This document shows positions 21,564 to 37,847 of a stretch of 38,171 nt of DNA, one piece after another. How positions within the stretch are numbered: the first letter of the stretch is position 1; every line of letters begins with the position of its first letter. The position numbers and the translations under genes were made by a program. Origin of the DNA: a virus; IMG/VR virus record IMGVR_UViG_3300022707_000431, positions 1-38,171 of that record, one strand, 5' to 3'. The notes below the pieces were generated by a model. The model did not search any database. It was not told where the DNA came from and saw only the letters and a program-made list of their open reading frames with translations.

Positions 21564-21854
21564 TTATTTGAAACTAACGACAAGATCCGTTGCTGCTGCA
21601 GTTGTTATATGAATACCAGTCTCATAACTTCCAATGATTTGGTAATTATGACCCTGAGACATTCCAGCAGATGAAATAAGGGCTTTGATCGGACCAGTAT
21701 TATCTAAGCTGTCACGAACCGTAATGTTACCGAAAGTGCCACCACAGATAACAATATTTACCATAAGTCCAGGATTGGGTTTTACTAACGTATCAGTCGC
21801 AGTAAATATCCTGGTAGATTTAAGCTGTGCATGCCTCGCTCTTGTTGGTGGCAT
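21564..21854 (-). CDS. small beta-rich virion protein
   Basis: A 96-residue protein of beta strands (RIFTATDTLVKPNPGLMVNIVICGG...TDLVVSFK) starting after a strong AAGGAG. It overlaps the upstream glycosyltransferase gene by 35 nt, but the strong binding site supports it as real. Size and fold pattern are those of a small decoration or fibre-like protein. No firm family. Confidence 0.65.
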   Translation of the reverse strand: MPPTRARHAQLKSTRIFTATDTLVKPNPGLMVNIVICGGTFGNITVRDSLDNTGPIKALISSAGMSQGHNYQIIGSYETGIHITTAAATDLVVSFK

Positions 21855-22743
21855 AATTATTCTCCTTCAAAAGAAACGGTTTATCTATCCATCCCATTTT
21901 ATGGGCGTACTTTAACATCTCGTCACATCTATGATCGTATGTGTGGTTATTTATTACGTGAGATTTTCCCATCTCTTCTATCACTTTTCGGTCCCCATCA
22001 TTCTGCAAATAATATTTTATTTTATCTATTGCATCATCAACATCATTATACGAAACAAGATCGATGTGATCAGCGAACACATCTTCAAAGCAGTTGCCCT
22101 TAATGTTGTTCGTAGCCAATAACGATCCTGAACACACAGCTTCGAAACATCGCATGTTGATGTCATCTTCAACGCTTATGTTCAAAACAATTCTTGATTC
22201 TGCATATTTCTGGTAGCATTCTCCCAAGTATCTTTGTCCATAGAAAAAATTTGGAAATTCTTTAAATATAGCATCAAGAAAGTCTACACGCTTATCCATG
22301 ATGTCCCACCCTGGGTTCACGTGTCCAACAAAACACACATCATATTTCTTTTGAACATCCTCACCCTTGCCATACACTTCAGGATCACATGCCAGTGGTA
22401 GCCATGATGCTGAGATCCCTTCATTCTCGAATATCTGTACAGCATTATGCTGAGCGCAGAAAACGTGGTCTATCTTTGCTTTCTTCACCCTTTCCAAACG
22501 CCAGTCCCAATCTATGTGCATGTCAATAGCCCAATACACAGATGGATGAAACTTATCTTCGGGCCAATCTACTTTCTTTCCATCGTCAACCAGAAGGTAC
22601 AGATCATATTCATCCTTCATATCCTTCCATTCACGGGTTGAGCAGTGCATTAACTCAATATTCCCACGCTTAGACAAAGACTTGTGAATGTACATCCCAG
22701 TGGTGTCTGCTCTCTGTCTGTCGTATACGTTGAGTATCTTCAT
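21820..22743 (-). CDS. CgeB-type glycosyltransferase (GT-B)
   Basis: A 307-residue protein starting MKILNVYDRQRADTTG. ATG 22743 follows CAGGAG by 6 nt and overlaps the previous stop (ATGA), so it is preferred to the ATG 18 nt upstream. The order of elements is that of CgeB/DUF3880-like glycosyltransferases: VYWAIDMHIDW, VFCAQHNAVQIFENEGISASWLPLACDPEVY (end of the N-domain), CFVGH, then the nucleotide-sugar C-domain with NISVEDDINMRCFEAVCSGSLLATN (the E-x-x-x-x-G region). It would transfer a sugar from an activated donor; acceptor unknown. Last of three tandem glycosyltransferases inside the virion operon. Confidence 0.8.
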   Translation of the reverse strand: MKILNVYDRQRADTTGMYIHKSLSKRGNIELMHCSTREWKDMKDEYDLYLLVDDGKKVDWPEDKFHPSVYWAIDMHIDWDWRLERVKKAKIDHVFCAQHNAVQIFENEGISASWLPLACDPEVYGKGEDVQKKYDVCFVGHVNPGWDIMDKRVDFLDAIFKEFPNFFYGQRYLGECYQKYAESRIVLNISVEDDINMRCFEAVCSGSLLATNNIKGNCFEDVFADHIDLVSYNDVDDAIDKIKYYLQNDGDRKVIEEMGKSHVINNHTYDHRCDEMLKYAHKMGWIDKPFLLKENNYATNKSEACTA

Positions 22744-23429
22744 GCTACGCTCCTGAGCCAATGTTTGAATCCATGTTTCTTAATCAATCCAATATTATGG
22801 TTTTCCTGGTATTCACGTGAGTTGTAATGGCTTCCCAGTTCACGCCCGTAACTGACACACCCATGATGGAACACGAATGAATCCCTACAGACTACCAGCG
22901 AGTACCCAGCATCCCTCACACGAATACAATAATCAATGTCGTCGCCACCCGTAAGGCTGCTGTCAAGTCCCCCAAGTTTTTCAAATACAGATCGTTTCGT
23001 CAACATGCAGAATCCAGACAGAACCTTTACAGGGAATCTTTTTTGAAGACCATAATTCAGAATGTTCTGGTATGCCAAAACGTAGTTACTGCATGGACCA
23101 GATGCACCCACGTCTTTGACTTTGCAAGCATCAACCAATTTCCCCAGCCAATGTTCATCGTTGTCCAGAAAAAGCACATCATCATTAACCATAAGAATGT
23201 ATTCCTGGTCACACATCTTGGCACCATAGTTTATTGATCCCATCCATCCCAGGTTTCCATCCATGTTGTAAACAGTTACATTCCTATGGTTTGGAAATTC
23301 ACTACCCAGGGGGGTCCCGTTATTAATCACATGAATCTTGTACAACATGTTCGTATTCCTGATGAACGTAGACAGCATCCCGTGGATCATCTGTGGATTA
23401 TTGTATGTTGGGACAATCACGTCAATCAT
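22740..23429 (-). CDS. GT2-family glycosyltransferase
   Basis: A 229-residue GT-A enzyme. It opens MIDVIVPTYNNPQMI, the standard GT2 start, has the GNLGWMGSINYGAK nucleotide-binding segment, a VNDD metal-binding motif (the DxD site), and a GGDDIDYCIRVRDAGY motif carrying the catalytic acid, as in rhamnosyltransferase-like GT2 proteins. It is shorter than many bacterial members and has no membrane span, so it is cytoplasmic. It overlaps both flanking glycosyltransferase genes, indicating that the three are expressed together with capsid genes. Confidence 0.85.
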   Translation of the reverse strand: MIDVIVPTYNNPQMIHGMLSTFIRNTNMLYKIHVINNGTPLGSEFPNHRNVTVYNMDGNLGWMGSINYGAKMCDQEYILMVNDDVLFLDNDEHWLGKLVDACKVKDVGASGPCSNYVLAYQNILNYGLQKRFPVKVLSGFCMLTKRSVFEKLGGLDSSLTGGDDIDYCIRVRDAGYSLVVCRDSFVFHHGCVSYGRELGSHYNSREYQENHNIGLIKKHGFKHWLRSVA

Positions 23430-24198
23430 TGCAGAACTCCCCTATCATCTTCTCGTTGGGCTGTATCTTCTTCCCGTACGATACTGTTATTTGTCCAGTC
23501 TCTTTATATTCGTCGTATTGTTCTTCACCGATGACAAGATTTGGTCCTATATGTTTCACAACTGTACTACAATCCATGTATGGCTGAAACCCGTTTGCTT
23601 TACACTTGTATGTAAAATATATATCTTCACCCAGTGGGATGTGTGACATAAACCAGGGCTTCGGGATCTTTTTAAGAATACCCACCCTTGTCAAACACAC
23701 CCCGAATCCTACGGCATCAACTTTTTTCAATTCCCCCTTCTTGTATTCCGTTATCGTCTCAAAAGTAATTTTGTTGTCTTTTGTTTCATTAGCTTTCCAC
23801 ATCACTGGTGTAAATGGCGCAACCCTCATGAACGCCAAAGCAGCTACTATGTCAACATTATGTCTTATCAATCTTTCAAATACATTCGTGTGAAACATCA
23901 TGTCATCATCTATCCACAAGATGTAATCCATCCCAGCATCCAAAGCGTATTCCGCTATTACTTCACGTGCATATCCAATCGTAAGCCTTCCCATGCTTCC
24001 ATGAAAAAACTTATAATTGGTATTAAGTTCACTCGTTGTTGAATAACTGACTAACTCAATGACACTATCCACAGTCCAATGATGAATGGATCCACCAGTG
24101 GGCATTGCTATCAATATCTTTACTTTGTCTTTATACAGCGTGCGGTCCATATTCGAGATACTTTGGACCACGCTTGGTTCAGAACCCATTTCAGCCAT
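23422..24198 (-). CDS. GT-A glycosyltransferase
   Basis: A 258-residue protein with KVKILIAMPTGG, GRLTIGYAREVIAEYALDAGMDYILWIDDDMMFH (the DDD metal site at its centre) and GFGVCLTRVGILKKIPKPWF...GEDIYFTYKCKANGF (catalytic region with the acidic E-D pair). This is the pattern of a GT2-like family often found in phages and viruses. The start is uncertain: ATGs at 24198, 24189 and 24150 all lack a good binding site, so coupling to the upstream gene is likely. Confidence 0.8.
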   Translation of the reverse strand: MAEMGSEPSVVQSISNMDRTLYKDKVKILIAMPTGGSIHHWTVDSVIELVSYSTTSELNTNYKFFHGSMGRLTIGYAREVIAEYALDAGMDYILWIDDDMMFHTNVFERLIRHNVDIVAALAFMRVAPFTPVMWKANETKDNKITFETITEYKKGELKKVDAVGFGVCLTRVGILKKIPKPWFMSHIPLGEDIYFTYKCKANGFQPYMDCSTVVKHIGPNLVIGEEQYDEYKETGQITVSYGKKIQPNEKMIGEFCND

Positions 24199-26137: not shown

Positions 26138-26968
26138 TTATTTTCTCTGAACATCCAACGCTATTTCTTCCCACGACTTTCCCTTGTCACTAACATCCCC
26201 AGTGCTCCTTGAGTTGTAACCTGGCTTCTGGATTACACGTCCCGCTTTTCTTGTAATGTCATCCAGTTGTTTTTTCGCACCAAGTTTTTCCCCCCGATCA
26301 AAGCAAACATATTTGAAAGCAACTTCTGCACTAATGTCAGGATTTCTTTCCATAAACTCGTCCATCTTTGTCTTGACATCAGGGTCATCAACTGGATAAC
26401 CAGCCTTGGCAAGACTGTCAAGTTGATTAGCATTCTGCTGATCTCGCTCCCGTGTGAGCTTTTCCACCTCTCGCTCACGCGCGAGCTTTTGCAGATATTC
26501 TGCATATGGCTGAAGTTTGCTATCCATATACGCATCAAGAATCTTCTTTGAATCAGGATCAATACCCTCCAACTCTGGAGAATTTTCGGGTTGCTGTGAC
26601 TTTACTCCGTAAGCCTTTTCAAGCTCACGTCTGACAGAAGGAATCTGTAGTGCTGCCTGAAGCTGTGCGTTGTTATTTTTAATCTTGTCCAAATCTTCAC
26701 GCATCTGCTTTGCTTCACTACTATATCCCATCGTCTTCTCAGTGAACGCACGCTGCCAATGTTTATCCCGTTCCGCCAAATCTTCAGGCAAACTGGAGAC
26801 ATCAACACCGTATGTATCCAACTTTACTTCTGGCTCAGACTGCCCATCCTCTGGTTTTTCAGGTTCCGATTGGCCATCTTCAAGGGAGGCTTGCACCCTA
26901 TCCTCGACAGACCCTTCGGGCTGCCCTACTTGATCATCGTTGGGTTCCGTGCTTTTATCTTCTGGCAT
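26138..26968 (-). CDS. scaffolding protein
   Basis: A 276-residue protein with a very acidic Glu/Asp/Ser/Pro-rich N-terminus (about 1-55, with the repeat EDGQSEPE-x twice). Long charged helices follow (YSSEAKQMREDLDKIKNNNAQLQAAL; YLQKLAREREVEKLTRERDQQ), and a Lys/Arg-rich C-terminus. This acidic-helical-basic layout and the position just before the coat gene are the hallmarks of phage scaffolds, which template the procapsid and then leave. The basic C-terminus would bind the coat. Confidence 0.75.
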   Translation of the reverse strand: MPEDKSTEPNDDQVGQPEGSVEDRVQASLEDGQSEPEKPEDGQSEPEVKLDTYGVDVSSLPEDLAERDKHWQRAFTEKTMGYSSEAKQMREDLDKIKNNNAQLQAALQIPSVRRELEKAYGVKSQQPENSPELEGIDPDSKKILDAYMDSKLQPYAEYLQKLAREREVEKLTRERDQQNANQLDSLAKAGYPVDDPDVKTKMDEFMERNPDISAEVAFKYVCFDRGEKLGAKKQLDDITRKAGRVIQKPGYNSRSTGDVSDKGKSWEEIALDVQRK

Positions 26969-30318: not shown

Positions 30319-31940
30319 AAATTCCCAACTTTCAATGGATTTCGATCATCAGGTTGGCGTTTTTTGAGGAACCACTCAAGAGTCATTGGCACTATTTCTT
30401 GGGTTGGCTGTACAATATTCTTTGGAATATCATGCAAAACGAATGCTGCCAGCGCAGCAGCCATCACACAATCATCGTGTGCGCCACCGTCTGCTTCCAT
30501 CCGATAATAATTTTCAGTTATTTTGCTTGGTTTGTAAACAAATGTGGAAAATTCTCCCAGAGTCTTTTGAGAATATACTTTAAAACCCTTACGCAAAAGT
30601 GCTTTCAACCTGTTGACCATGACTTCTTTTGTCTTGCTGCTCGTGAATAATCCAAGTTTTCTGCTGTCAGATTGCAGGCCCTTATCAAGTCTCATTTCTG
30701 TGTAAATGTTGGGATACGATAATTCCCAGAGTTTCAAAAGTACCCCGATACCAGAACTGTTTCTTTCCACGATAGCCAGCGCATTGTAATAAAGCATCCC
30801 AAGAACATTCAACTCTTCTGCAAACAAATCTGGATGAATCAGCCCATGCCATTCTGCAACCTGTTCCCAAACGCTTGCATCGTACACGTGAGCACATGAG
30901 GGATCCCCCTTCTCAGATCCAGCAGCACTGTCAGCACTCATGACATATGCGTGTCCAGGGATTGGCATCTTCCAGATGGACAGATACCCATTTTCGGATT
31001 CCTGTATCTTTTTTACTGATTTATCTATGATCCCGACAATAATTGGGGGTGGTGCTTGATCAGACAACTTACGGATCAATGGCACATCAAACACGCAGTT
31101 AAGCCTTGAGATAAATGCTTCTTCCCACGTGGCTGGGTATTCCTGTTTAAAAAATACCGGATCCGGCATCTCAGATATCTTCCACCTACGCCATCGCAAC
31201 TGGTCATCAGTCACATTATTATTAATCTTCAGTCGCAATTCTTCGTCATCCAGATCAGTCAATACTTTTTTAAATTGTTCAAGATAAACCGATTCAGATA
31301 TTCTGTATTCCTCAGTCAAAAACCACGGGAAAAAGTGTAATTTCCAATTCGACAATCCATCAATGATCTTTCTTAAGAACCTGTAGAACCACGTCCCTAT
31401 GCCCTGTGCTGTGGTTTCTATGATTACACGACCATTGATGGGCACCGCTTCAAGAAGTCCTGTCAAGATTTCTTCAGGTCTTGCCCATGATGCTATTTCT
31501 GAACAATGCAATCTATTAATGGTGTCCCCACGACCAAATGATTTCTGTCCAGCAGTCCCGATGTAGATACTGGAATTCAAGTCTGGGAATGTGATCTCAC
31601 TTTGGGATTCGTATTCGGTTCTAATGGGAACCTTAAGATTGTCCAGATAGAATTTGACACGTCTGAGAAGACGGATCGTAGCGTCACGTTCATGTGAAAT
31701 AACTACACACTTACAATTTTTCGTCACGATCATATCACGCAACATCAGGCCCAACGCAAGACTTGAAATCCCCTGTTGACGTGACTTTAAAATAAGATCA
31801 CGGTTACTGTGTTCATTCCAGTAATTTCGTTGTACAGTGTTGGGATCGAAATTAACTATTTTTTCTTCTTTACTTTCGATCTTAAAAAATGTAGAAATGA
31901 ATTCAAGGGGTTCTAAAACTTTTTTGATATGAGGTTTCAT
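30315..31940 (-). CDS. terL: terminase large subunit
   Basis: A 541-residue packaging motor, starting at ATG 31940 (upstream TTG is unlikely). ATPase domain: KSRQQGISS (52-60) as the R-x-x-Q-x-G-x-S type Walker A, LHCSEIA (144-150) as Walker B with Glu148, and RVIIETTAQG (171-180) as coupling motif. RNase H-like nuclease: SADSAAG (Asp337), AIVERNSSG (Glu392) and GAHDDCVMA (Asp489/490). It cuts concatemeric DNA and pumps it through the portal. The gene is separated from the portal gene by a divergent insert with the homing endonuclease. Its start codon abuts that of the epimerase gene. Confidence 0.93.
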   Translation of the reverse strand: MKPHIKKVLEPLEFISTFFKIESKEEKIVNFDPNTVQRNYWNEHSNRDLILKSRQQGISSLALGLMLRDMIVTKNCKCVVISHERDATIRLLRRVKFYLDNLKVPIRTEYESQSEITFPDLNSSIYIGTAGQKSFGRGDTINRLHCSEIASWARPEEILTGLLEAVPINGRVIIETTAQGIGTWFYRFLRKIIDGLSNWKLHFFPWFLTEEYRISESVYLEQFKKVLTDLDDEELRLKINNNVTDDQLRWRRWKISEMPDPVFFKQEYPATWEEAFISRLNCVFDVPLIRKLSDQAPPPIIVGIIDKSVKKIQESENGYLSIWKMPIPGHAYVMSADSAAGSEKGDPSCAHVYDASVWEQVAEWHGLIHPDLFAEELNVLGMLYYNALAIVERNSSGIGVLLKLWELSYPNIYTEMRLDKGLQSDSRKLGLFTSSKTKEVMVNRLKALLRKGFKVYSQKTLGEFSTFVYKPSKITENYYRMEADGGAHDDCVMAAALAAFVLHDIPKNIVQPTQEIVPMTLEWFLKKRQPDDRNPLKVGNF

Positions 31941-32939
31941 ATGCAAACCAGAATACTCTTAACAGGCGGATGCGGGTTCCTTGGCCACCACGTGGTCAAC
32001 CATCTGCTTGTCAACACAGACTGGAACATCGTCATATTAGACAGACTATCATATGCGTCAAATGGATTCGACAGATTACGTGATATAAAAGTCTTCGATA
32101 ACAAGCGGATCCTGTGCATTGCAACTGACTTTTCACAGCCCATATCTGCTGGTGTAGCAAAAGAAATCGGGGATGTCCACTACATTCTGCACATGGGCGC
32201 AGAAACACACGTGGATAATTCGATCAAAGATCCTGTCCCGTTTATCATTTCAAACGTATTGGGAACCCATTACATCCTGAAACTGGCAGAAAACATGATC
32301 AATCTGAAGCTGATGCTGTATGCGTCTACGGATGAAGTCATGGGACCAGCACCAATGGGGGTAGATTTCAAAGAAACAGACGTACCCAACCCTACGAACC
32401 CCTATGCAGCTACCAAGATGGGTGCTGAAGCCCTTTGTATGGCGTATGCCAATACGTACAAAATACCAGTGGCCATTACACGCACGATGAATTTATTTGG
32501 AGAACGCCAACACGGGGAGAAATACGTGCCCCTGTGCATCAACAAGATTTTGAATAGTGAATGTATTTACATCCATGCGAACCCAGCGAAGACTGTATCT
32601 GGCTCACGGTTCTGGCTACACTGTCGCAACTATGCTGCTGCTGCACTGTTTCTTCTGAAAAGAGGGAGAGCATCAGAGATTTATAATGTCGTTGGAAACA
32701 AAGAAGTATCCAATCTTGATATGGCTGATATGATTGCAAGCATCGTCGGGAAGCCATTATTTTATGAAATGACAAATTTCCATGCCAGTAGGCCGGGGCA
32801 TGATCTTCGTTATAGCTTATGTGGTAAGAAGTTACGTCAAATGGGATGGAAACATCCGGTAACTTTCGAGGATAGCTTATCCAAAACTATTCACTGGTTT
32901 CTAAAACCAAATAACAAAAGATGGTTAGAATGGGAATAA
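31941..32939 (+). CDS. NAD-dependent sugar dehydratase/epimerase (RmlB-like)
   Basis: A 332-residue short-chain dehydrogenase of the extended class. GGCGFLG (9-15) binds NAD; STDEV (129-133) is the typical Ser/Thr-Asp-Glu triad of dTDP-glucose 4,6-dehydratases; YAATK (155-159) gives the catalytic Tyr and Lys. It likely makes a 4-keto-6-deoxy sugar nucleotide or a related intermediate for the phage-encoded glycosyltransferases. Start at ATG 31941 with GAGG 6 nt upstream. Length is close to that of bacterial RmlB (about 350). Confidence 0.85.
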   Translation: MQTRILLTGGCGFLGHHVVNHLLVNTDWNIVILDRLSYASNGFDRLRDIKVFDNKRILCIATDFSQPISAGVAKEIGDVHYILHMGAETHVDNSIKDPVPFIISNVLGTHYILKLAENMINLKLMLYASTDEVMGPAPMGVDFKETDVPNPTNPYAATKMGAEALCMAYANTYKIPVAITRTMNLFGERQHGEKYVPLCINKILNSECIYIHANPAKTVSGSRFWLHCRNYAAAALFLLKRGRASEIYNVVGNKEVSNLDMADMIASIVGKPLFYEMTNFHASRPGHDLRYSLCGKKLRQMGWKHPVTFEDSLSKTIHWFLKPNNKRWLEWE

Positions 32940-32949
32940 AGGGGTGTGT

Positions 32950-33132
32950 ATGAGTACTAATGCTCATGAAGAAGGTGTTCTTCAGCACTGCGATATGTGT
33001 AGGTGCGAGAATGAAATAATAAAAGTCATTGGTGGCGGGGTCAAGTGCTGCGATGGTTGCGTCAAGAAGGTTCTCAGTTCTCCCCAGGATTTCTATGTTC
33101 GAAATGGCATGATCAACCGGAAAGGTTGGTAG
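32950..33132 (+). CDS. 60-aa zinc-ribbon protein
   Basis: Start at ATG 32950 after GGGG at 5 nt spacing; an earlier GTG is too close to the site. It has CDMC (about 15-18) and CDGC (about 36-39), a four-Cys zinc ribbon, with additional Cys at 20 and 35, then a short tail. Sandwiched between two sugar genes. It resembles the other small zinc ribbons in the left arm. Role unknown. Confidence 0.7.
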   Translation: MSTNAHEEGVLQHCDMCRCENEIIKVIGGGVKCCDGCVKKVLSSPQDFYVRNGMINRKGW

Positions 33133-33148
33133 GTCAAAAAACCAATTA

Positions 33149-34546
33149 ATGAGAGTCTTATTCTGGAATCCCTATCCGATGTGGTTCAAGCACTTTGCCT
33201 GTGAGCTTGAGCTTATCATCAAGCATCTAAAAGCTGGGGATGAAGTGTTTGCTGTAGAATGCGTTGGACACCTACCGTTTTGCGAACAGAACCGTTTCCA
33301 CGATACGTCCCTGTGTGTACCCTGTGTGGCACAGCGCAGGAACTGCTACAAACTGGCAGGGGTACAGAATATCATCCCGCTGGATCTGGCTACGTACATG
33401 ATCAAGGATGATTATGAACACTTGATAAAATCAGGACATACATCAGTTTTATCGTATAAAGGTAAAAACATCGGAACTGCCATAGCGTCCACGATCATCA
33501 GTAATACCCACGGATCAGATTCAGACCTTGATGAATATTCAGAATTCATTGGACAGCAGACAATGGTATCACAAGCCATGCAGGATTTCTTTCACATCAA
33601 GTTCCAGAAGCACAAGATCAACCTGTTCTACACATTCAATGGACGGTTCGCAACCATGCGTCCAGCCATCAATGCTGCTGAAAACCTTGGGATCAAGTAT
33701 TTCACGTATGACAACCCATTCGTGAAAGATGACTACAGGCTGGCTGAGAACGCCACAGTTCAGGATGTCAACTTTATGCGTAAAGAAATTGATACAGTCT
33801 GGGAGAATGATAAATCCCCGTATGAGCACAAGGAACTCATGGCTGCTGAGTATTTCAATAAAGCTCGTGGAATGTACAAAGTGGACGATCCCAACAGAAT
33901 GCCATTCAGCTTTGATGTGCAGAAACGCAACATTGCCATATTCATAACCAGCAACTATGAGCTGCATATAGCTGAGAACGCCACACCAAACATCTATGAG
34001 GACCAGTTGGATGCGCTTACGCACTTGGCTGATGCAGGGTTGCACAAAGACATCCACTTCCACGTCAGAATCCATCCTGCACTGGAGACTGATTTCAACT
34101 CATTCACGTACAAATTCATGTCATTTCGCAGAAACAACTTTCACATCATCCCCCCTGGGGCACAAGTCAGTAGCCACAGACTGGTGGAACTGTGTGAGAA
34201 GACCATCGTATTCTATTCCAGCATGGGCATACAAGCCAACTACATGGGAAAGCCCGTAATCGGGCTGGACAACACTGAATGGGACAATCTTGATATAGCT
34301 TATAAACCCCGTGATCACGATCATTTCGTGGAATTGGTCGCTATGGAGAATCTGCCTCCAAAGCCAAAAACTGGTGCTATCAAGTATGGGTACTGGGCAG
34401 TCACTCATGGGCATAAATTCACGAATTGGTACTTTGACAAATTTGAGAGTGTGCCGAATTTCTTCGGGTCCACGGAAATCCATAAGCAGATTCATGAAGA
34501 TGTTGTGAAGAATACGAGAACTGTCAATGAACTTTTTGAGGTGTGA
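33149..34546 (+). CDS. capsule-synthesis-type glycosyltransferase (GT-B)
   Basis: A 465-residue cytoplasmic protein. The start MRVLFWNPYPMWFKHFACELELIIKHLKAGDEVFAVEC is a Rossmann beta-alpha unit. C-x-x-C-x-x-x-x-x-x-C (LCVPCVAQRRNC) may bind metal. The C-terminal half has HFHVRIHPAL and later VSSHRLVELCEKTIVFYSSMGIQANYMGKPVIGLDN, the pattern of capsule polysaccharide synthesis-like glycosyltransferases and CMP-Kdo-type enzymes that use an activated sugar. It follows the RmlB-like gene, so donor synthesis and transfer could be linked. The acceptor (virion, DNA or host envelope) cannot be read from sequence. Confidence 0.7.
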   Translation: MRVLFWNPYPMWFKHFACELELIIKHLKAGDEVFAVECVGHLPFCEQNRFHDTSLCVPCVAQRRNCYKLAGVQNIIPLDLATYMIKDDYEHLIKSGHTSVLSYKGKNIGTAIASTIISNTHGSDSDLDEYSEFIGQQTMVSQAMQDFFHIKFQKHKINLFYTFNGRFATMRPAINAAENLGIKYFTYDNPFVKDDYRLAENATVQDVNFMRKEIDTVWENDKSPYEHKELMAAEYFNKARGMYKVDDPNRMPFSFDVQKRNIAIFITSNYELHIAENATPNIYEDQLDALTHLADAGLHKDIHFHVRIHPALETDFNSFTYKFMSFRRNNFHIIPPGAQVSSHRLVELCEKTIVFYSSMGIQANYMGKPVIGLDNTEWDNLDIAYKPRDHDHFVELVAMENLPPKPKTGAIKYGYWAVTHGHKFTNWYFDKFESVPNFFGSTEIHKQIHEDVVKNTRTVNELFEV

Positions 34547-34548
34547 TT

Positions 34549-34734
34549 ATGGATATGATTCAGGTACAGGAAGAAGCTGTAAATGGAAAGGCTATTGCGC
34601 AATTATTTTGGCTAGCTTATGACACAATTAAATTGGATGATCCAGAACGTGCTGATGCGTGGATGGAGTGTGTTCTGATAGATATAAGTATTTTGATAAA
34701 TAAGAAAATTTTTATTGACAAGGGTGGGGAATAA
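34549..34734 (+). CDS. hypothetical 61-aa acidic protein
   Basis: Start at ATG 34549 with GAGG 7 nt upstream, preferred to the in-frame GTG 34543. The protein (MDMIQVQEEAVNGKAIAQLFWLAYDTIKLDDPERADAWMECVLIDISILINKKIF) is helical and acidic. Its last codons contain the -35 element of the next promoter. Unknown function. Confidence 0.65.
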   Translation: MDMIQVQEEAVNGKAIAQLFWLAYDTIKLDDPERADAWMECVLIDISILINKKIFIDKGGE

Positions 34735-34742
34735 TGTAGGAT
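34715..34742 (+). promoter_or_regulatory. promoter for the structured leader and replication genes
   Basis: Perfect -35 TTGACA (34715-34720), 16-nt spacer, -10 TAGGAT (34737-34742, four of six). Predicted transcription start near 34749, just before the structured RNA. The -35 lies in the end of the preceding gene. Confidence 0.65.
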
Positions 34743-34753
34743 GTTTGAAGTAA

Positions 34754-34869
34754 GGGACAAATACCCAAGCACGAAGGTATTCTACTGACATTCAAATTGC
34801 GGACACTTTATGTCGTAAGGCATAGAGCGGTAACCTACGCTTGGGGAACCGTCCCACGTCCGCTTTTTT
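34754..34869 (+). ncRNA. structured leader RNA with pseudoknot and U6 end (RNA-1)
   Basis: A non-coding 152-nt gap holds nested structure. Helix P1: GCGGAC (34799-34804) with GTCCGC (34858-34863), followed by TTTTTT (34864-34869), an intrinsic-terminator arrangement. Inside is a 9-bp hairpin, CTTTATGTC/GGCATAGAG, with a GTAA loop (GNRA class, 34806-34827). Then an H-type pseudoknot: CGGT (34828-34831) with ACCG (34848-34851), and GGGA (34844-34847) with TCCC (34852-34855). Upstream bases can instead pair CCCAAGC (34764-34770) with GCTTGGG (34839-34845) and GGGAC (34754-34758) with GTCCC (34851-34855). That conflicts with the pseudoknot and encloses only one strand of P1. A strong ribosome-binding site follows. 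Attenuator, riboswitch or stand-alone small RNA are all possible; no known class matches to my eye. Confidence 0.6.
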
Positions 34870-34886
34870 ATTTAGGAGGTTTATTT

Positions 34887-35243
34887 ATGCTTAAATATTG
34901 CTACGAAATTCCAGATATTCAGTTAGCCTATAATGGATGGACATATGTTATGAAGGAATATAAATTCAGAGATAATGAAGAAGCATTGAATACCATGAGA
35001 AGTTTAGATCATATTCTACAAGAATTTGATACATCTTGGTATGGCTTTGGAGATTGGAACTATAGCGGAATACCACACATTAAAGATGACGGATCACAGG
35101 GTAAAAAAATATATTCCATAGATCAAACACAGAACAAAATGAATGGACTCACAATCACATTCGTATTGTCACCATATTTACTTCCTTGGCTGTCCGAATG
35201 GAGCAAAAATAAAAGGGTTAAAAATGGCAAGTCCACAAGTTGA
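34887..35243 (+). CDS. hypothetical protein, first gene after the structured leader
   Basis: A 118-residue protein starting at ATG 34887 after TAGGAGGT (6 nt); the open frame upstream only runs through the leader RNA. The sequence is rich in Tyr, Trp and Asp (YCYEIPDIQLAYNGWTYVMKEYKF; DTSWYGFGDWNYSG), with a basic tail. No family is recognised. It overlaps the O-like initiator gene by 20 nt, so both depend on the same leader. Confidence 0.75.
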   Translation: MLKYCYEIPDIQLAYNGWTYVMKEYKFRDNEEALNTMRSLDHILQEFDTSWYGFGDWNYSGIPHIKDDGSQGKKIYSIDQTQNKMNGLTITFVLSPYLLPWLSEWSKNKRVKNGKSTS

Positions 35244-35955
35244 AGATGGATTCGTTCGTACAGCACGAGAATTACAGTCTGCGCTGTGTAAAACTAGGGT
35301 CCCTGGAGAAGCCAGACAGATGTTCGATGTCATTCTCATGAAAACTTACGGGTATCATAAAAAACAAGATCGTATTAGCACTAGTCAATTTATGCAACTC
35401 ACTGGTATGTCTAGAATTGCAGTTTATAGAGCAAGAAAGAAACTAGTTTCAATGAATATGATAACTGTCTACAATAAAGCAGACAGTTACATCCTATACT
35501 ATTCCATACAAAAGAATTATGAAAAGTGGAAAGTGTCTACAAAAATGCAGATATCTACAAAAAAGTCACAAGGTGTCTACAAAAATGATACACAAGTGTC
35601 TACAAAAATGCAGACACCCTTAGTAGTTAAAGATAATACAAAAGAGAATATACAAAAGAAAGTTATTTCACGGGCAAGCCGTGAGACATGGCTCACCATC
35701 TTTGGTGACTACTGGGAAAAACAACTTGGTGGCAAAATGGCATACGGGATGGCTGCCAAGTTCCTGAAACCCCTGGTGGACGAGCATGGTTCTGAGCGTG
35801 TGATGCTGAAGTTCAAGGCGTATTTTAGCTATGTTCGTGTAACGGGATCCCAGCCATTCGCAAACATATCTATTTTCGCAAGTCGTTTTGAGTTCTGGCA
35901 GGCTGGCTGTCAGTACAATAAAACTAAAAAGGGCTGGGAAGCGGAGGATTACTGA
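35224..35955 (+). CDS. lambda O-like replication initiator
   Basis: A 243-residue protein. Residues 1-85 match the N-terminal replication-origin-binding domain of phage O proteins: EDGFVRTARELQSALCKTRVPGEARQMFDVILMKTYGYHKKQDRISTSQFMQLTGMSRIAVYRARKKLVSMNMI, a winged helix. Such proteins bind iterons and recruit the host helicase loader. The iterons lie inside this gene, as in lambda, and encode the low-complexity middle (VSTKMQISTKKSQGVYKN...). The C-terminal 100 residues (WLTIFGDYWEKQLGGKMAYGMAAKFLKPLVDEHG...) are the partner-binding part. Start at ATG 35224 after AAAAGGG; a longer upstream frame is out of context. Confidence 0.88.
   Translation: MASPQVEDGFVRTARELQSALCKTRVPGEARQMFDVILMKTYGYHKKQDRISTSQFMQLTGMSRIAVYRARKKLVSMNMITVYNKADSYILYYSIQKNYEKWKVSTKMQISTKKSQGVYKNDTQVSTKMQTPLVVKDNTKENIQKKVISRASRETWLTIFGDYWEKQLGGKMAYGMAAKFLKPLVDEHGSERVMLKFKAYFSYVRVTGSQPFANISIFASRFEFWQAGCQYNKTKKGWEAEDY
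35463..35613 (+). repeat. iteron array, candidate replication origin
   Basis: Five direct repeats inside the initiator gene. Four are GTGTCTACAAAAATGCAG-like, starting at 35533, 35551, 35573 and 35596 (spacing 18, 22 and 23 nt; the second is ATATCTACAAAAAAGTCA). A fifth, diverged copy at 35463-35488 is a perfect dyad, AACTGTCT/AGACAGTT around acaataaagc. The last copy also closes as a dyad, GTGTCT...AGACAC. The following 35614-35670 is very AT-rich, a likely unwinding element. The arrangement matches the lambda origin. Confidence 0.8.
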
Positions 35956-36743: not shown

Positions 36744-36842
36744 ATAATCTGAGGGCAACGGGGAGCGAGTGGATTAACTGGATGAGGACTGGTTGGTATG
36801 TTGCAATCCTGGCGCCATGATCCGTTGTCTTCTTTGAAATTT

Positions 36843-36935
36843 GAGTGGGAGTGTTGCTATCGGAAGGTAGTGACGGATGCGAGCCTTTCTTCCTGTGCCG
36901 TTAGGCTTTCGACTGATCGACTCCCACTCTTTTTT
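36843..36935 (+). ncRNA. structured RNA with pseudoknot and U6 end (RNA-2)
   Basis: Perfect 10-bp closing helix GAGTGGGAGT (36843-36852) with ACTCCCACTC (36920-36929), then TTTTTT (36930-36935). Inside, GCTATC/GGTAGT with a GGAA loop (GNRA class, 36856-36871), then an H-type pseudoknot: ACGG (36873-36876) with CCGT (36898-36901), and AGCCT (36882-36886) with AGGCT (36903-36907). The 67-nt interior is too long for an ordinary terminator. The same order of parts as RNA-1. No good promoter is evident directly upstream, so it may be the 3' end of the replication transcript or a processed RNA. 36744-36842 upstream shows no clear feature. Confidence 0.6.
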
Positions 36936-36946
36936 GAAAGGTGGTG

Positions 36947-37129
36947 ATGTGTAGTGGAAGAAGACCTTCGACAAAGAATGCTGTAGAGCGGTTCCAATCC
37001 GCCACTCAGCACCCCATGAGAGTCCTGACGTTGGCTCAGGACGAACGCAAACCAGATTTATGGGTTGTACTACAAGAAAGGATGAGAACGTGCGAGAGAT
37101 TAGATTTAGAGCGTGGGATAATTCTTTAA
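36947..37129 (+). CDS. possible 60-aa protein overlapping the YopX-like gene
   Basis: ATG 36947 follows GAAAGG by 6 nt. The frame is open for 60 codons (MCSGRRPSTKNAVERF..., then LTLAQDERKPDLWVVLQERM) and overlaps the next gene by 40 nt. The DNA also folds into hairpins (GCGG/CCGC around TTCCAAT at 36988-37002; GTCCTGA/TCAGGAC at 37022-37042), so it could instead be a continuation of non-coding RNA. Both readings are open. Confidence 0.4.
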   Translation: MCSGRRPSTKNAVERFQSATQHPMRVLTLAQDERKPDLWVVLQERMRTCERLDLERGIIL

Positions 37130-37533
37130 ACCCTCCCCGTATGATGGATTCGGATGAGTGTGGGGAGTGGACTCTTGAGTCTTTGTTTTCATGTTCACTG
37201 GAAGTAATGCAGTACACAGGACTTAAGGATAAGAACGGGGTGGAGATTTATGAGGGGGATGTTGTAGGTGCTAGTCAAAAAGACATGAGCAGGGTTATGA
37301 AGTATAAACCTGAGAAAATCTTGGGGTTGGTCAGGTGGAGCCGTGGTGCGTTAAGGATAAAATTTGATAATCTTCGTGGCGATTGTGGAAAAGAAATAAT
37401 TGCCCACGACATTGACACTGGCACCAGAGGGTATGAATACTTTAATTGGGCGACCTTAACTTACAAAATTTGTAATATTAAAGTCATCGGGAATATTCAT
37501 GAAAACCCAGAACTTATTAAAAAATCAGAATAA
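37090..37533 (+). CDS. YopX-family phage protein
   Basis: A 147-residue protein starting at GTG 37090 (AAGAAAGG at good spacing), giving REIRFRAWDNS at the N-terminus, the usual YopX opening. Other family marks are VMQYTGLKDKNGVEIYEGDVV (about 43-63), WSRGALRIKF and the ending VIGNIHENPEL. The family is very common in phages and prophages as a beta-rich fold of unknown function. Length fits the family. Confidence 0.9.
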   Translation: MREIRFRAWDNSLNPPRMMDSDECGEWTLESLFSCSLEVMQYTGLKDKNGVEIYEGDVVGASQKDMSRVMKYKPEKILGLVRWSRGALRIKFDNLRGDCGKEIIAHDIDTGTRGYEYFNWATLTYKICNIKVIGNIHENPELIKKSE

Positions 37534-37554: not shown

Positions 37555-37695
37555 ATGAAGAAAAAAGAAACCATACTGTAAACCCTCAGAAGAGAATACC
37601 ACGGGTGGCTCAAGGAGTTCTGGTTCCCACCCAGGGTGTTCGAGCTGACCAAGGATGATCTGAAGTGGATGCTACCTGAGATATCCCAAGAGTGA
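37555..37695 (+). pseudogene. small gene interrupted by an in-frame TAA
   Basis: ATG 37555 follows AGGGG at good spacing, 22 nt after the YopX-like gene. Eight codons (MKKKETIL) lead to TAA at 37579-37581, then the same frame stays open for 37 codons of clearly protein-like sequence (TLRREYHGWLKEFWFPPRV, then FELTKDDLKWMLPEI) to TGA. One base change (CAA or GAA to TAA) would explain it. Either a recent nonsense mutation, a sequencing error, or stop read-through. No restart codon with a binding site is seen. Confidence 0.5.
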
Positions 37696-37796: not shown

Positions 37797-37847
37797 GGCT
37801 CTCACAATGCTGAGGATGCTCCAGGACGAACGCAAGTGATCAGAGCC
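37797..37847 (+). other. structured non-coding element sharing a 13-nt motif with 37038-37050
   Basis: GGCTCTCAC (37797-37805) pairs with GTG-atc-AGAGCC (37836-37847), a 9-bp helix with a 3-nt bulge. Inside lies a small hairpin, CTGAG/CT(c)CAG (37810-37824), and AGGACGAACGCAA (37823-37835), which is identical to 37038-37050. In both places it follows a hairpin strand. Confidence 0.4.

Follow-up and report, generated by a model that had tools for sequence, protein, structure and literature searches.

The window analysed here spans all 38,171 bases of IMGVR_UViG_3300022707_000431, a record from an uncultured virus. The minus strand of this phage carries a block of genes encoding terminase, portal, capsid and tail proteins; the products of a second block, on the plus strand, comprise an O-like replication initiator, a RecT-like annealing protein, an exonuclease and a nucleotide-sugar epimerase. 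At 21820-24195 and 31929-34546 lie genes for several glycosyltransferases, for a nucleotide-sugar epimerase and for a 465-aa protein without assignment; these genes possibly serve surface-polysaccharide modification. Within the structural-gene region, positions 26401-26521 gave the strongest predicted RNA fold among the sampled windows, with z scores of -5.5 on the plus strand and -3.3 on the minus strand.

The O-like gene (Phage_rep_O, E = 1.3e-19) occupies 35224..35955 of the plus strand. A repeat search revealed four iterons of the TGTCTACAAAAATG type within this gene (35462..35622, plus strand), which probably represent a lambda-type replication origin about 600 bp 3' of the first of two structured RNA modules, hereafter copy A. 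Directly 3' of copy A lies a 118-aa ORF (34887..35243, plus strand), the first gene after the module, which overlaps the O-like gene. The 118-aa protein matched no family in Pfam, PADLOC or NCBIfam, and its structure model had a pLDDT of 48.5, a confidence too low for use. The second module, copy B, is followed on the plus strand by a small ORF of about 60 aa, with its ATG at 36947 and its end at 37129, overlapping the YopX gene (37060-37533). The product of this ORF matched no defence family in PADLOC or NCBIfam and is unrelated to the 118-aa protein. A tRNA-like element after copy B was considered and dropped, since ARAGORN was negative and the frame is open. The sequence CAGGACGAACGCAA occurs twice in this part of the window, at about 37038-37051, where it codes for QDERK within the small ORF, and at about 37822-37835, where the surrounding 600 nt have no clear genes and it is possibly a decayed duplicate. 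At 37557-37694, a frame reading MKKKETIL, one in-frame TAA and then TLRREYHGWLKEFWFPPRVFELTKDDLKWMLPEISQE represents a broken or recoded small gene.

Upstream of copy A, we found a sigma-70-like promoter on the plus strand, TTGACA-16-TAGGAT (34715..34742), with 10 of 12 matches, and the transcript would start at about 34749. The initial annotation had called this a good promoter; the match itself stands, but promoter-like sites in the region are no more numerous than chance would give (16 found versus 16.9 expected). The resulting leader RNA, of about 121 nt (34749..34869, plus strand), is structured. The U6-terminated helix, the 9-bp GNRA hairpin and the H-type pseudoknot, which the annotation had placed at 34754-34869, are all present in the sequence. 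The closing (terminator) stem, GCGGAC/GUCCGC (34799-34804/34858-34863), encloses the interior and is followed directly by the U6 tract (34864..34869). The interior consists of a 9-bp hairpin with a GUAA (GNRA) loop (34806..34827), for which pair probabilities of 0.92-0.98 were predicted, and of an H-type pseudoknot (34828..34856) formed by stems S1 (CGGU 34828-31 / ACCG 34848-51) and S2 (UGGG 34842-45 / CCCA 34853-56), with a single U separating the 3' strands. The ribosome-binding site was likewise confirmed, as a Shine-Dalgarno sequence AGGAGG (34874..34879) ahead of the ATG at 34887; all of these elements lie on the plus strand. As compared with dinucleotide shuffles, the copy A RNA (34749-34869) had a folding z of -2.7 to -3.2, a score also reached by 18 of 952 other windows from this phage. 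Three further candidates were considered and rejected: a lambda boxA-like sequence, which is located in a hairpin arm and therefore buried in a helix; a c-di-AMP (ydaO) riboswitch, suggested by GGGGAACC, for which Rfam gave no match; and an HDV-like ribozyme topology, whose helix order does not fit.

After copy A had been seen, a second module was sought by a scan for closing stems continuing into T6, and copy B was found 2 kb 3' of copy A (36843..36935, plus strand). Its closing stem comprises 10 bp (GAGUGGGAGU 36843-52 / ACUCCCACUC 36920-29) and is followed directly by U6 (36930-35). The 9-bp hairpin, GUUGCUAUC-GGAA-GGUAGUGAC (36853..36874), has a GNRA loop and the same UC-GNRA-GG closing as that of copy A. 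The H-type pseudoknot (36873..36907) is made of S1 (ACGG 36873-76 / CCGU 36898-901), the first two bases of which overlap the hairpin foot, and S2 (AGCCU 36882-86 / AGGCU 36903-07), again with a single U between the 3' strands. A Shine-Dalgarno sequence, AAAGG (36937-41), and the ATG at 36947 follow (36937..36949), and all of these elements are on the plus strand. The best nested fold of copy B departs from this plan and had a predicted energy of -36.4 kcal/mol, versus -35.5 kcal/mol for the combination of the hairpin, S2 and a small hairpin; the folding programs score no pseudoknot, and all fold comparisons given here cover nested pairs. The 98 nt upstream of copy B form a separate hairpin domain, an intergenic element at 36751-36832 with an 11-bp outer helix (GAGGGCAACGG 36751-61 / CCGUUGUCUUC 36822-32).

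Comparison of these two copies from one genome revealed a common plan, in which a closing stem runs straight into U6, a 9-bp UC-GNRA-GG hairpin sits at the inner stem end, an H-type pseudoknot has a 1-nt U between its 3' strands, and a Shine-Dalgarno sequence and an ATG come after. The presence of two copies, their plan and their positions are direct observations. The stem sequences differ between the copies, the Watson-Crick stems directly before U6 being 6 bp in copy A and 10 bp in copy B, and the U6-to-ATG distance is 17 nt and 11 nt, respectively. When the pairs were aligned, 14 of 23 differed on both sides and 0 on one side only; because the pairs had been picked by complementarity, this figure is a description and not an independent test of covariation. 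Both copies possess sequence features expected of an intrinsic (Rho-independent) terminator, namely a G+C-rich stem and, directly after it, a U tract of at least 5.

As an independent test, the rarity of the plan was assessed with a strict descriptor consisting of stem, hairpin and U6, with the pseudoknot left out. This descriptor, framed after copy A and partly after copy B had been seen, picked out only copies A and B in the window; 4000 shuffled windows contained a single match, and 0.97 Mb of other loci contained none. A slightly looser form gave none in 1.48 Mb, and a looser descriptor had at least two matches in 1.4% of shuffled genomes. When either interior was shuffled, no more than 0.07% of the shuffles had a GNRA hairpin of at least 7 bp at the inner stem end, and 4-11% had an H-type pseudoknot.

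Copy A is further associated with a rival long-range fold (34754..34855, plus strand), which is absent from copy B and has no counterpart upstream of it. The fold is composed of the helices GGGAC 34754-58 / GUCCC 34851-55 (5 bp), CCCAAGC 34764-70 / GCUUGGG 34839-45 (7 bp) and AGGU 34775-78 / ACCU 34833-36, all on the plus strand, and the 7-bp and 5-bp upstream pairings are present and nested, as had been claimed. Among shuffles, 0.7% contained a nested 7+5-bp pairing over 100 nt, as did 8 of 635 windows of the genome, and the duplex between the upstream segment and the core beat 99.8% of shuffled upstream segments. However, the gain in total folding energy (MFE) from the upstream segment was matched by 5.4% of shuffles and is not significant, and as a signal beyond chance the rival fold is only moderately unusual. 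The predicted energies are -36.6 kcal/mol for the rival fold versus -35.1 kcal/mol for the terminator fold, the latter without its pseudoknot; depending on the transcript ends that are assumed, the predicted balance lies anywhere between 94% terminator and 99.9% rival. During transcription, the rival fold is predicted to form first. The initial annotation had presented the two folds as mutually exclusive; they are nearly iso-energetic in copy A, but exclusivity was overstated, as the bases used by the rival helices are in part those of the pseudoknot but never those of the terminator stem (34799-804/34858-863). The rival helices and the terminator stem cross topologically and could coexist as a larger pseudoknot. 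In a transcript that reads on, the freed GUCC is predicted to pair weakly with the Shine-Dalgarno sequence.

The viral, bacterial, phage and plasmid collections scanned yielded no homologue. Searches by blastn with the leader in phages and plasmids, and with copy B in phages, gave no homologue, and tblastn of the neighbouring proteins likewise gave none. Related-locus searches with the 118-aa protein, the O-like protein, terminase and capsid also yielded no module; the relatives recovered for terminase and for the O-like protein had 23-43% identity, and no module was present in the DNA retrieved for these relatives. Exact DNA patterns gave matches in viral and genome collections that look like chance, without the surrounding structure. 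Covariance models built from copy A alone, for the rival fold (R1) and the terminator fold (R2), recognised only copy A in the window and did not recover copy B, and R2 detected nothing across 20 related records. Rfam gave no match for either module and no known aptamer class.

Considered as a whole, the sequence data suggest that copies A and B may belong to a single orphan family of structured intrinsic terminators acting as attenuators, probably responsive to a factor; we assign this reading a probability of about 0.5. According to this hypothesis, the G+C-rich closing stem, running into U6 and enclosing the GNRA hairpin and the pseudoknot, would stop RNA polymerase just before the Shine-Dalgarno sequence. 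Most transcripts would end at U6 and leave short RNAs, of about 120 nt in the case of copy A. Since no consensus promoter was found between U6 and the ATG in either copy, the next genes would depend on read-through; the 118-aa ORF and the O-like initiator after copy A, and the small ORF and YopX after copy B, would be made only from read-through transcripts. Given such dependence, and provided that no antitermination system carries the polymerase past them, both modules would be attenuators, setting the level or the timing of the replication block. The interior goes beyond the needs of a terminator and is kept in both copies while the stems differ, suggesting that it is probably recognised by a common factor, either a protein of phage or host origin or, with lower probability, a small molecule, which would alter read-through. 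In copy A only, pairing of the upstream segment with the pseudoknot strands could add a second, anti-terminating state. The initial annotation had proposed attenuation or a riboswitch; the terminator-like leader is strengthened by copy B, and attenuation is a fair reading, whereas the switch is unsupported.

The main rival to the attenuator reading, which we consider unlikely, is that the modules produce a terminated trans-acting small RNA (a decoy, a regulator or an RNA antitoxin-like partner). The terminator would then supply the 3' end, and the role of read-through into the next gene would be limited to setting stoichiometry, on the pattern of AbiF and type III toxin-antitoxin loci. The interior fold is elaborate, and the succession of a promoter, a pseudoknotted RNA of about 120 nt, a terminator, a Shine-Dalgarno sequence and an ORF is similar to that of the RCd22-abiF and type III loci (PMC12373285, PMC5086642). 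However, no tandem repeats were found at copy A or copy B, and the downstream proteins, besides being unrelated to each other, show no match to ToxN, to AbiF or to any other defence family; a ToxN/CptN/TenpN-like protein was detected neither for the 118-aa ORF (Pfam, PADLOC, NCBIfam) nor for the small ORF after copy B (PADLOC, NCBIfam). It is improbable, in our estimation, that the modules are ordinary early-gene intrinsic terminators passed by processive antitermination, through an N/Q-like protein or a put-like RNA, with an interior structure that is incidental or only compacts the loop. The lambda-type O gene and the iterons of this phage are in keeping with such a scheme, but a stem-adjacent GNRA hairpin together with a pseudoknot would not be expected in both copies, and no N, Q or CI homologue was recognised among the proteins scanned, N-like proteins being easily missed.

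A ligand-driven riboswitch or attenuator, in which the GGGAC/GUCCC and CCCAAGC/GCUUGGG helices of copy A would form an anti-terminator opposed to the pseudoknot-terminator, appears quite improbable. The rival fold and the terminator fold differ by no more than about 1.5 kcal/mol, and the predicted early formation of the former during RNA synthesis and the rarity of its upstream duplex and nested pairing among shuffles are in line with such a switch. These points are set against the lack of an equivalent upstream of copy B, the MFE gain that falls short of significance, the dependence of the balance on the assumed ends and the absence of any base in common with the terminator stem. In addition, Rfam and the homologue searches yielded neither an aptamer of a known class nor one conserved in relatives. 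The proposed sensing is unsupported; nothing in the data points to a sensed ligand.

Most phage riboregulators known so far either keep termination from occurring (nut, put, qut) or work as antisense or antitoxin RNAs. In the phage described here, a terminator module occurs twice in the replication region, each time immediately ahead of a ribosome-binding site and with a matching structure. We suggest, only tentatively, that the modules may belong to a new class of phage regulatory RNA, in which a pseudoknot-and-GNRA module within an intrinsic terminator would form a factor-responsive gate, reused in one genome; the gate is proposed to stand before replication and later early genes. Replication gating by an RNA fold would be testable with the two independent copies and compensatory mutants, and the descriptor gives a means of seeking relatives once closely related phages appear.

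Terminating riboswitches with pseudoknotted aptamers, such as those for fluoride and ZTP, combine a pseudoknot with an intrinsic terminator within a 5' leader. The phage modules differ from these in having no Rfam match, no metabolic target gene and no anti-terminator common to copies A and B. The put RNAs of HK022, two stem-loops of about 70 nt, prevent termination (PMC9378689). They resemble the modules as two structured RNAs in early phage transcripts that act on elongation, whereas the modules are putative terminators with pseudoknots, ending in U6. The features of a put-type pair, namely two stem-loops, no terminator and similarity between the sites, were not observed, and most stem pairs differ between copies A and B. 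The RNAs of type III toxin-antitoxin systems (ToxI, CptI) share with the modules the order of pseudoknotted RNA, terminator and gene (PMC5086642), but the modules have no tandem repeats or ToxN-like endonuclease, and their terminator is not a separate hairpin. The closest layout is that of RCd22-abiF (RF03085) of C. difficile prophages. In sequence and motif the two are unlike, the phage modules having no match to the RF03085 covariance model; the proteins after the modules are not Abi_2, in the phage the structured domain sits within the terminator stem, and there are two modules. In common with the phage modules, RCd22-abiF has its own promoter, a structured RNA of about 100-130 nt and an intrinsic terminator just before the Shine-Dalgarno sequence (PMC12373285). 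Its downstream gene is reached only by read-through, as would be the case for the phage modules, and in this leader-terminator-gene layout control by read-through has been shown experimentally (PMC12373285).
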